Shown: positions 11,891 to 37,811 of the stretch, piece after piece
How the letters are laid out: every line of letters begins with the position of its first letter
Position numbering within the stretch: position 1 is the first letter of the stretch
Origin: an uncultured Fluviicola sp.
Lineage (GTDB): Bacteria; Bacteroidota; Bacteroidia; Flavobacteriales_D; Crocinitomicaceae
Reading direction: 5' to 3'
Assembly (NCBI GenBank): GCA_913009205.1
Contig: CAJVYC010000001.1
Coordinates: 248,001-312,000 of the forward strand
DNA: 64,000 bases
Notes under the pieces: model-generated
What the model was told of the DNA's origin: nothing
Seen by the model: the letters and a program-made list of their open reading frames with translations, nothing else
The model's database searches: none
Position numbers and translations under genes: made by a program

Positions 11891-12772
11891 TCATCGGTCA
11901 ATTAAGTGTGTCTTTAATCTTTTTGCAAGTTTAAACCAAGCTGGGCCGTTATTTTGGATATGCATGAAATACACTTCATCAATACCACCGAGATTGTAAT
12001 TAAAGCGTTTAACCCCTTCAATATTCGATCCACCGAAGTCAAATTTTAGGTTGTTTTCTTTGGCGTATTCAATAGCACTATTTAAGGCCAAATACATTCC
12101 ACCATTTGATTTTGTCTCACTGTCCACTGCGCCTTTAACATACAACAACTGATCTTTTGATTCAAAGCAAACAATCCCCCCCAAGTTGCCATTGCCAGCA
12201 ACGTTGAACACTTTTATAGCTTCTGCTTGCTTAGCATTTTCAAAAAGTTGTTTCAAGGCATTCAATGATTTCTCGGTAATTCCCATGAATTTATGATTCA
12301 ATTCTTCCTTTACTTTGGAAAACACATTTGAATAATCATCTGTGAGAGCAACACTAAACCCATTCTTTTCTGCCTTTTTTAAAGACCGTTTGGCTTGACT
12401 TCCCAATTTACGGCTTTTAAAATCACTGATTGCTTGATAAATTCTTTCTTCGGGTTTATCAAACAATTCATGACGACACGCAAATTCAATGACTTTAAAC
12501 CGTTCTGTGATCAGCGCTAATTCGTCTTCTTTGAATTCTCCAATCACCTCGGAATACCTTCCGAAAACTGGGCTATAGAGCACTTCGACTCCTGCTCTTT
12601 TTGAATACGGTAGTGCGATTCCTCGTGAGTAATCATCATTGACTAGAACGCACCAGTTTTCCGCAATAGCATCCAAGTACCACGCTTTTGCGAAGAGTGA
12701 TATGCCTCCTTGCTTGTTCGTCAAGTTCTCCCAGCGAGCTAAATTAATATTTTTGCGTTCTACTATTTGCAC
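11891..12772 (-). CDS. FemAB/GNAT-like acyl- or aminoacyl-transferase
   Basis: A 293-residue protein of the FemABX/BioF2-like GNAT group, whose members attach acyl or aminoacyl groups to peptidoglycan or exopolysaccharide precursors. The best marks are GGIVCFESKDQLLYVKGAVD, the helix GGMYLALNSAIEYAKENNLK, and FDFGGSNIEGVKRFNYNLGG, which parallels the FDFEGSM-x-x-G-x-x-x-F-x-x-x-F-G ending of the family. The start is a GTG at 12772, overlapping the upstream deacetylase stop by ten bases. The acceptor is unknown; the context suggests a surface glycan. Confidence 0.75.
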   Translation of the reverse strand: MQIVERKNINLARWENLTNKQGGISLFAKAWYLDAIAENWCVLVNDDYSRGIALPYSKRAGVEVLYSPVFGRYSEVIGEFKEDELALITERFKVIEFACRHELFDKPEERIYQAISDFKSRKLGSQAKRSLKKAEKNGFSVALTDDYSNVFSKVKEELNHKFMGITEKSLNALKQLFENAKQAEAIKVFNVAGNGNLGGIVCFESKDQLLYVKGAVDSETKSNGGMYLALNSAIEYAKENNLKFDFGGSNIEGVKRFNYNLGGIDEVYFMHIQNNGPAWFKLAKRLKTHLIDR

Positions 12773-13743
12773 GACTCTTTTTGAAACGTTGTAAATTGGT
12801 GTTTCATATGATTCTTGTTTATAAATTTCGCCAAGCTTTTTATCGAAAATTTCGTATTCCCTTTTGGATGACCAATCACAACCATTTCCTTGTGTTCCAT
12901 ATTTGTAGATTTCTCTAAACCTGATTCCAATTTACTCGCGTAATATCCGTCGGATGAAACATGGCCAATTGTAAACGTTCTTAGAACACGCTTTTTTCGT
13001 CCCCCCTGACTAATGAAATCCCCATCACCAATCATTTTATGTTGCGCAGGTTTCAATCTTCCAAGGATATACAAACGCCAAAAGAATAAAGGACTGTAGC
13101 GTAGAGAAGTTATTGGATATTCGGTAAAATCGCCACCGTCGTCTTTAACACAGACATCGTTTGTAAAGGTGTACTTCGAATCTGATGGCGCTTCTCGGAA
13201 ATCAACAGCGTATTCGTTGGTCGCTATAAAATCTCCTGTAATTACGCTACTGTCGATCTTAATTCCGACTTCTTTAAAAATACCTGCAACATGCTCAAAA
13301 GGTTGAATGCACCAACCTCCAGCTCTAAATGTGGTAACGGATCGACCAATCAATTTTTCCAAATATGATTTGTACGATCTTACAATTTTATCACTTTCTG
13401 ATTGCTCAAAATCTGATAATTTATAAACGCCATCTACATTCATCGACCATTTGCCCTTTTCGTAAGTCGCCTTCTCCCAATGCGGATGAATGTGCAATTG
13501 AACGTCATGTCCAAGTGTTATCATTTGCTGAACTTGTTCTTTAACAGATTGAAGCTCACCTTGCAATTCTGGATATTTTTCGGCTTGAATTAAATATCCA
13601 ACATCAACGAAAAAAGTAAGGAATACCTCTTTCCACTTGGCCAAATTAAATAAATCTTCGGTTGGCTCAAGCATGCATTTTTCGACTGATCCTGAATCTT
13701 CGCCGAAGAACAATTCATAGTCATATGTTAGGAATATTTTCAC
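12763..13743 (-). CDS. NodB-like polysaccharide deacetylase-fold protein
   Basis: A 326-residue member of the glycoside hydrolase/deacetylase superfamily. The start is GTG. The N-terminus IFLTYDYELFFGED holds the family's Asp-x-Asp/Glu metal or base motif, and the pair QLHIHPHW gives the metal-binding histidines. FRAGGWCIQPF corresponds to the R-x-G-G-W substrate loop. Such proteins remove N-acetyl groups from glycans, although some in polysaccharide loci have no proven activity. It is first in a tightly packed run with the FemAB-like and dehydratase genes, supporting a role in surface-glycan assembly. Confidence 0.75.
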   Translation of the reverse strand: MKIFLTYDYELFFGEDSGSVEKCMLEPTEDLFNLAKWKEVFLTFFVDVGYLIQAEKYPELQGELQSVKEQVQQMITLGHDVQLHIHPHWEKATYEKGKWSMNVDGVYKLSDFEQSESDKIVRSYKSYLEKLIGRSVTTFRAGGWCIQPFEHVAGIFKEVGIKIDSSVITGDFIATNEYAVDFREAPSDSKYTFTNDVCVKDDGGDFTEYPITSLRYSPLFFWRLYILGRLKPAQHKMIGDGDFISQGGRKKRVLRTFTIGHVSSDGYYASKLESGLEKSTNMEHKEMVVIGHPKGNTKFSIKSLAKFINKNHMKHQFTTFQKESCK

Positions 13744-36481: not shown

Positions 36482-36808
36482 ATGAACCTAACTCCTATAC
36501 TAAGTAACCAAACAGCCTTGAATGGCCGCTTAATCAATACAGGAGTGGACTCCATGATGGACAAAATCATGTATATCTACATGATTGTTCTAATCAGCTT
36601 CTTTGTACTGCAATTCATTTTTGTACTTGCTGTAATTCTTAAACGAAAAACGACTTTTCGAATGCTCCTTGGAGTGCTATCCTCAATATTCTTACTCGCA
36701 AGTATTCCTTTCTTTCTACCAGGCTCGTCCTTTGCATGGTTTGGGGCAATCGTTGTTTTAATGGGAATCATTGGAATTTTCGTCTCCATCAAATTCAAAA
36801 AGAAATAG
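36482..36808 (+). CDS. Small membrane protein of unknown function
   Basis: A 108-residue protein with three predicted membrane segments (IMYIYMIVLISFFVLQFIFV, MLLGVLSSIFLLASIPFFLP, AWFGAIVVLMGIIGIFVSIK) and a short Lys-rich tail. No family recognised. It stands between mltF and miaA; nothing in the context suggests a role. Confidence 0.6.
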   Translation: MNLTPILSNQTALNGRLINTGVDSMMDKIMYIYMIVLISFFVLQFIFVLAVILKRKTTFRMLLGVLSSIFLLASIPFFLPGSSFAWFGAIVVLMGIIGIFVSIKFKKK

Positions 36809-36905
36809 ACATTCCAATCCTGACTTTAATTTATAATGTCCCTTCTCTACTCTTGGTGTTCAAAAGCTATCGCTTTTTCTGCCAATTAAAAATTATCTTT
36901 ACTCT

Positions 36906-37811
36906 ATCAAACATCTCGTTGTTATATCAGGACCAACAGCAAGCGGAAAAACAAGCTTGAGTATTGCCGTAGCAAAGCACTTTAAAACGTGTATTGTTTC
37001 TGCAGATTCACGTCAATTTTACAAAGAGCTTTCGATTGGAACTGCAAAGCCTTCAATTGAAGAGCAAGATGCTGTTCCGCATCATTTCATAAATTCCCAT
37101 TCGATCGAGGAAGAAGTAACATCCTATCAGTTCGAAGAAGAGGCGCTAAATCTTTTGAAAGAAGAATTCAAAACAAAAGATGTAGTTGTTTTAGTCGGTG
37201 GATCAGGAATGTTTATTGACGCACTTTGCATTGGGCTGGATAACATTCCGAATTCTCCAGAGGTCAAATTGAAAATTCAAAAAGAACTGGAGGAAAACGG
37301 ATTAGAACCTCTTCTAGTTGAGTTAATGGAGTCCGATCCAGAATATTACGAACAGGTTGATAAAAGCAACGCTATGCGCATTGAACGCGCAATTGAGGTT
37401 ATTCGCTTGACAGGCAAGAAATTCTCTGAGCTAAGAAAACAGAAGCCACCCCCCCGACCTTTTAAAGTACATCGTATCGTACTGAATCATGATCGGCAAG
37501 TACTTTATGACAGAATCAACCGGCGCGTGGATATTATGATTGAAGGCGGTCTACTTGAAGAAGTTCAATCCGTTCAATCCCAAAGGCATCTTTCATCGCT
37601 CAATACCGTTGGATACAAAGAACTATTTGCTTATCTTGACGGGCATTCAGCGCTGGAAGAGGCGGTCGAAAAAATAAAACAAAATTCCCGTCGATATGCA
37701 AAACGGCAATTGACTTGGTTTAGAAGGCATCCTGAATCTCAATGGATTAGATATGGCGCAGAAAAAGACATGCTGAATGCAGTGATAAATTATTTTGAAA
37801 AGAATCGATAA
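36906..37811 (+). CDS. miaA: tRNA dimethylallyltransferase MiaA (no canonical start codon)
   Basis: The enzyme adds a dimethylallyl group to A37 of tRNAs reading UNN codons. The P-loop VVISGPTASGKTSLSIAVA, ADSRQFYKELSIGTAKPS, HHFINSHSIEEEVTSYQFEE, VLVGGSGMFIDALC and RYAKRQLTWFRRHPESQW are all MiaA motifs. The first standard start codon in frame is a TTG at 36957, which lies after the P-loop and would remove it. Upstream the frame is open to a TAA at 36834 but contains no ATG, GTG or TTG. I place the start at ATC 36906 (IKHLVVISG), which gives 301 residues, normal for the family, and which sits four bases after TATCTTTA, a near -7 box. ATT 36885 and CTG 36879 are alternatives. Confidence 0.85.
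   Translation: MKHLVVISGPTASGKTSLSIAVAKHFKTCIVSADSRQFYKELSIGTAKPSIEEQDAVPHHFINSHSIEEEVTSYQFEEEALNLLKEEFKTKDVVVLVGGSGMFIDALCIGLDNIPNSPEVKLKIQKELEENGLEPLLVELMESDPEYYEQVDKSNAMRIERAIEVIRLTGKKFSELRKQKPPPRPFKVHRIVLNHDRQVLYDRINRRVDIMIEGGLLEEVQSVQSQRHLSSLNTVGYKELFAYLDGHSALEEAVEKIKQNSRRYAKRQLTWFRRHPESQWIRYGAEKDMLNAVINYFEKNR

Follow-up and report, generated by a model that had tools for sequence, protein, structure and literature searches.

An ATC codon conserved in part of the Crocinitomicaceae as the probable, weak start of miaA, coupled to a downstream coding element

Where does translation of miaA begin when no standard start codon precedes its P-loop? The question is raised by a gene in a 64,000-nt stretch of DNA from an uncultured Fluviicola sp. 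of the Crocinitomicaceae, referred to below, at its full length, as the window. The original prediction was that no ATG, GTG or TTG occurs between an in-frame TAA and the first in-frame TTG, with the P-loop encoded between them, and direct reading agrees: codons 36837-36956 of the miaA frame include zero ATG, GTG or TTG. The TTG at 36957 comes too late to serve as the start, since the P-loop would be lost. The features of the locus are as follows.

36834-36836, plus strand: in-frame stop TAA 5' of miaA, read from the sequence
36894-36901, plus strand: putative -7 promoter box TATCTTTA, ending 4 nt before the ATC
36906-36908, plus strand: ATC, inferred miaA initiation codon, shared by 29/30 same-genus genes and 56/107 family genes
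36906-37811, plus strand: miaA coding sequence from ATC to TAA (37809-37811), 301 codons plus stop, with TIGR00174 and PF01715 matches
36921-36926, plus strand: codons 6-7, GTT ATA, putative coupled downstream element (consensus GTC ATA), from the codon-bias comparison
36930-36953, plus strand: P-loop GPTASGKT, read from the sequence
36957-36959, plus strand: first in-frame TTG, just 3' of the P-loop

Read from the ATC, the window protein is a full MiaA in score, length and P-loop. It matches TIGR00174 with an E value of 2.6e-78 and 263.2 bits (cut-off, 148.65), residues 5-281 spanning profile positions 2-283 of 288, and PF01715 with an E value of 2e-78. The expectation that ATC 36906 would yield a protein of normal length is thus borne out by 301 codons and a near-complete profile match. 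Between the MltF-like gene and miaA, the window also holds a 108-codon open reading frame (ORF; 36482-36808) that matches neither Pfam nor NCBIfam; the sequence immediately 5' of miaA resembles the end of the MltF-like gene in several relatives.

Three origins had been offered for the odd start, i.e., a rare start at ATC or ATT, mutation of an ATG or an error, together with the suggestion to compare the start region in close relatives. That comparison upheld the first and disposed of the other two. In the window's genus (g1), a protein search found miaA in 30 of 34 genomes, and the same codon is ATC in 29 of these 30 genes, the exception (L020) having ATG. The closest named relative found, a Crocinitomicaceae metagenome assembly whose MiaA is 87% identical (L032, apparently the contig of G010), carries the same ATC. 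Across the family, 56 of 107 miaA genes read have ATC 8 codons ahead of GPT, distributed over five genera (g1, 29/30; g13, 2/2; g15, 3/4; g16, 4/4; g18, 18/23), and 0/44 genes from other genera of the family have it at the start position. These 107 genes, from 107 genomes, comprise all 30 genus matches and a hand-picked spread of family matches, so that 56/107 is not the proportion of a random sample. The family search itself gave a miaA match in 189/200 genomes, from which 100 further start regions or genes were taken, some genomes twice; a duplicate (L057, same genome as L198) was left out of the miaA set. A sequencing error, an assembly consensus error or a private mutation of ATG in the window's genome is refuted by the presence of ATC in 56 genomes, and its probability is practically nil.

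The codon itself is held strictly. Wherever an ATH codon stands 8 codons before GPT, it is ATC (56/56, with ATT 0 and ATA 0 among the 107 genes), and ATC makes up approximately 28% of the Ile codons in the miaA genes. An upstream stop closes the frame in 53/56 ATC genes within the sequence examined, and 37/56 lack any standard start from the last in-frame stop up to the P-loop. No standard start combined with a conserved near-cognate codon places miaA, on the sequence record, among genes with a putative AUH-type non-AUG start. In the remaining 19 genes, three frames run past the sequence end and the rest have a standard codon upstream, which in five (L013, L017, L019, L183 and L186) is an ATG 17-25 codons before GPT that could in principle be the start. 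These 19 genes, and the window's own frame, open for 23 codons 5' of the ATC, lend themselves to a reading in which translation starts at an upstream near-cognate codon (ATT 36885 or CTG 36879) or is coupled to the upstream gene, with ATC as an internal Ile codon. Such a reading is hard to reconcile with the in-frame stops that lie close before ATC in many relatives, a TAG immediately preceding it in L189, and with a conservation that falls to near background directly 5' of ATC, A-rich positions excepted. Moreover, ATC is never swapped for ATT or ATA, unlike an internal Ile codon. We therefore consider an upstream start improbable.

Codon 4 locates the beginning of the translated region more closely. 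It specifies Leu in 52/52 full-length ATC genes through five spellings (CTC, CTA, TTA, CTT and CTG); thus it is translated, and translation begins at or before codon 4. Where there is no upstream start, this leaves codon 1, 2 or 3, of which only codon 1 resembles a start, and ATC would be the only credible start of miaA. The context of the codon points the same way: A occupies -3 in 42/56 and -5 in 37/56 ATC genes, at a background of 29%, and A-3 resembles the start context reported in the accessible text of PMC6847099, where adenine at -3 is a positive start-site determinant in Flavobacterium johnsoniae. A variant initiator tRNA reading AUC was also considered and rejected. The search for initiator tRNAs, which detected only those sharing the query stem sequence, returned 31 matches in 28/29 genomes, all with the anticodon CAT and none with the AUC-matching GAU; the ARAGORN list for the window's genome (23 loci) is incomplete, as it contains no Ile tRNA.

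Conservation of the start is accompanied by an unusual codon choice a short distance downstream. Codon choice was compared column by column over 111 columns in 52 full-length ATC genes. The columns with the strongest synonymous bias were codons 1, 7 and 6, the bias at codon 1 (ATC in 52/52) holding by construction. Codon 7 is ATA in 48/52 genes (ATA usage, 17%) and codon 6 is GTC in 43 of 48 Val codons (GTC usage, 15%), both being unbiased in the 44 non-ATC genes compared, while codons 4 and 5 of the ATC genes vary freely. The next strongest bias, at codon 13, is taken to reflect the two separate Ser codon blocks. The window has the near-invariant ATA at codon 7 and the minority codon GTT at codon 6.

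As column-bias p-values ignore kinship, changes were counted on the MiaA tree. Among ATC genes, parsimony requires a single change at codon 7 (to ATT, in g16) and five at codon 6, compared with 13, 13, 13 and 18 in other Ile columns and 16 and 21 in other Val columns. The corresponding numbers in non-ATC genes are 10 for codon 7, the lowest of five Ile columns, and 14 for codon 6. Where codon 7 specifies Ile, the spelling is ATA in 48/52 ATC and 5/40 non-ATC genes. The few changes at codons 6 and 7 in ATC genes indicate that the start codon and positions +16 to +21 are held together at the nucleotide level. When the ATC-ATA link was tested by independent pairs across well-supported branches, four pairs were available (on average 2.5 in agreement, 0 in disagreement and 1.5 without difference); they point in the same direction as the tree counts and are too few to reach significance. 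ATA is not strictly required, since all four g16 genes combine ATC with ATT at codon 7. Conversely, L020 retains GTC ATA behind its ATG and may be a recent reversion. On a tree of 96 MiaA genes, the distribution of ATC takes 10 changes, of which well-supported branches force at least 4. One ancient origin of ATC followed by several returns to ATG seems a more economical history than gaining three matching codons again and again, and is unproven by the tree.

If AUC merely kept MiaA low, as AUU does in infC, and the bias at codons 6-7 had an unrelated cause, the start codon alone would need explaining. Weak miaA starts are indeed common: outside the family but within the order, TTG is the nearest candidate start in 7/28 genes that could be read, and 9/51 non-ATC genes of the family have TTG or GTG, and no ATG, at 8-12 codons before GPT. 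Codons 6-7, however, are frozen only in ATC genes, which makes a simple weak start of this kind a rather unlikely explanation. The main rival to the reading that we prefer is a single regulator binding site spanning both parts, i.e., ATC and GTC-ATA belonging to the same operator in the DNA, or the same site in the RNA, at the 5' end of miaA, with binding setting expression and the AUC start as a tolerated by-product. This would account for the start codon and codons 6-7 being kept or lost together and for a pattern apparently specific to miaA. Nevertheless, in two g11 relatives (L149 and L150), a box lies 3 nt before an ATG at equal promoter spacing and the element is absent, and the element thus goes with the start codon rather than with the promoter. 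The putative site is not palindromic by eye, the distance between box and ATC varies from 3 to 13 nt, and a binding site could sit a few bases off and spare the ATG. We judge such a regulatory site unlikely, if slightly less so than the simple weak start.

The nature of the element was approached from RNA structure and rRNA pairing. RNAalifold detected no conserved fold between -4 and +150 in the 56 ATC sequences. Pairing of the element with 16S rRNA gave nothing specific or convincing in one ATC species and three others; the ATC species and all three other species have the 6-mer UAUGAC in their 16S. A search of 14 genomes had recovered 16S genes from 4, one of them an ATC species. Two of the four have an altered anti-Shine-Dalgarno end (GGAACATCTCC in L319 from G122 and GGAATATCTCTTTT in L320 from G106), and in the 16S of L318 and L321 this end reads GGAACACCTCC.

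Upstream of the start, TATCTTTA resembles the Bacteroidota -7 promoter box, TAnnTTTG. The box-to-ATC spacing had been likened to that of leaderless genes in the window, and the likeness stands, as TAnnTTTG lies 3-6 nt before a candidate start ATG in several long ORFs (6834, 11833, 19343, 27247, 30387 and 63005). In 35/56 ATC genes, the 3' end of a TAnnTTT[GA] box lies 3-13 nt before the ATC, compared with a mean of 1.9 and a maximum of 7 in 500 single-base shuffles. The spacing is 3-4 nt in 10/56 genes, the window included, and 9-13 nt in 25/56. From the usual distance between box and transcript start, the 5' end of the mRNA would lie at or near the AUC, and the miaA mRNA is predicted to be leaderless or nearly so, beginning at or a few bases before this codon. 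Three observations count against this part of our reading: 21/56 ATC genes have no TAnnTTT[GA] box in the 3-13 nt range, leaders exceed 10 nt in 87% of predicted F. johnsoniae transcripts (accessible text of PMC6847099), and leaderless mRNAs appear to need AUG (excerpt of PMC5622118).

ATC does not seem to be in wider use as a start in these genomes. The pattern ATCAAN7ATYGTCATA gave 12 miaA matches and 4 others in 16 genomes, and 2 matches in the reversed control; in this exact form it misses 4/16 genomes, the window's own included. All four non-miaA sites lie opposite long open frames, and the element was rejected as a general start signal. TAnnTTTG-N2-5-ATCAAA occurs at 10 sites in the genome (2 for the reversed control), and the longest frame from such an ATC has 87 codons (L143), none looking like a credible gene; general ATC starts were rejected on this basis. 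A tally over 614 gene-like ORFs in 864 kb took the codon located 3-6 nt 3' of TAnnTTTG and no later than the first standard start of the ORF; it is ATG in 23 cases and ATC in 0. With TAnnTTT[GA], the kind of box that miaA carries, the numbers are 32 and 2. This composition survey has little power: by the amount of coding-like sequence ahead of the first standard codon, miaA came only sixth, and a stricter cut-off (296 ORFs) lost the gene. On the minus strand of the window, approximately 47 codons of coding-like character come ahead of the first standard start in the ORF at 11894-12931, a candidate for a decayed gene or another odd start.

The ATC-start gene was not found among the genomes sampled outside the Crocinitomicaceae. 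A pattern combining ATC with the P-loop matched in 27/299 genomes of the order, all in Crocinitomicaceae, and in none from its other families (G200-G381); such counts are lower bounds, as 4/56 known ATC genes (L183, L189, L190 and L191) misfit the pattern. A looser version matched in 4/395 genomes of the class, two of them in Crocinitomicaceae, and the other two matches (L276 and L277) have TTG or ATG just upstream. A miaA match was obtained in 43/44 genomes of other families of the order, and none of the 28 readable loci among 30 taken has ATC at the start position; L258 and L273 lack the P-loop pattern and were left out of this reading.

Other unusual miaA starts were encountered during these surveys. 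In L272 (G211, family f2), the only in-frame standard codon before the P-loop is a GTG directly at it, with ATT or CTG, 14-15 codons before the P-loop, as candidate starts. In L205 (G106, g7), the last 12 codons before the P-loop offer no standard start; a single TTG 17 codons before it is probably within the preceding gene, and an ATA at 10 is a candidate. The case for ATA starts in L175 and L177 is weakened by a coding-like extension with an upstream TTG or GTG that both share. Three genomes (G214 and G203 of f5 and G270 of f9) encode a second, divergent MiaA-like protein (29-33% identity).

Altogether, with a rough probability of 0.58, we favor the reading that miaA is translated from a deliberately weak AUC on a short-leader or leaderless mRNA and that use of this codon depends on the downstream element. 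The ATC would probably be a built-in weak, controllable start. In the proposed mechanism, the mRNA would begin at the AUC or a few bases 5', and the ordinary initiator tRNA (CAU) would pair with the first two bases of AUC only, the third being mispaired; such two-base pairing would make initiation weak and open to IF3 proofreading. GUC-AUA at +16 to +21 would then act as a cis signal that renders the weak AUC usable or, alternatively, would allow its use to be set in trans by a factor that may be MiaA itself. This arrangement would serve to keep the MiaA dose low and tunable. In a lineage that has gone back to ATG, the element would no longer be held and would drift. A bolder version, which we hold tentatively and at somewhat less than even odds, is that this is a new bacterial start signal, in which an AUC at or near the mRNA 5' end works only with GUC-AUA at +16 to +21. 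The two together would make up a switch specific to miaA, perhaps through feedback of MiaA on its own mRNA, kept since an ancestor inside the family and with both parts lost on return to AUG.

AUC starts appear to be very rare in bacterial gene sets. Of 61,358 ancestral AUG starts, the switches listed in the excerpted text of PMC5622118 lead to GUG, UUG, CUG (2) and AUU (1) and none to AUC, while AUU, CUG and AUC are described as variably used starts in the accessible part of PMC9845219. The listings from our literature search, confined to open-access articles, showed no report of an AUC/ATC start in miaA or in Crocinitomicaceae. Gene finders limited to ATG, GTG and TTG will truncate or miss ATC-start miaA. 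Bacteroidota are reported to lack Shine-Dalgarno signals (PMC6847099, in part), and many Bacteroidetes genomes to have neither these nor recognized leaderless starts (PMC3160421, in part). The coupling of a start codon with an element downstream of it would offer a testable handle on start choice and its tuning in this phylum, as well as on the control of tRNA-modifying enzyme levels. In Escherichia coli, miaA is under posttranscriptional control by CsrA and CsrB, according to the available text of PMC12249760.

Compared with known systems, the ATC genes resemble leaderless Bacteroidota genes with TAnnTTTG where the box lies 3-4 nt before the start (10/56) and differ from them where it lies 9-13 nt off, which implies a short leader (25/56), or where none is in range (21). 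The position of the element within the coding region (+16 to +21) is shared with the downstream box, a proposal, since refuted, that the first part of the coding region pairs with 16S rRNA (PMC3160421, in part). The miaA element differs in having no specific 16S complement. The gene for IF3 in E. coli, infC, starts with AUU. The likening of the window's miaA to infC-type genes holds as an analogy only: the gene is another one, miaA and not that for IF3, as infC-type IF3 autocontrol would require, the codon is AUC and not AUU, and infC of the genus has an in-frame ATG in 30/30 loci. We know of no counterpart in infC of the downstream GTC-ATA element, and miaA would further differ in having this coupled element in its coding region and a short leader or none. 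What the two appear to share is a near-cognate AUH start, likely weak and controllable, in a gene belonging to the machinery of translation and tRNA.
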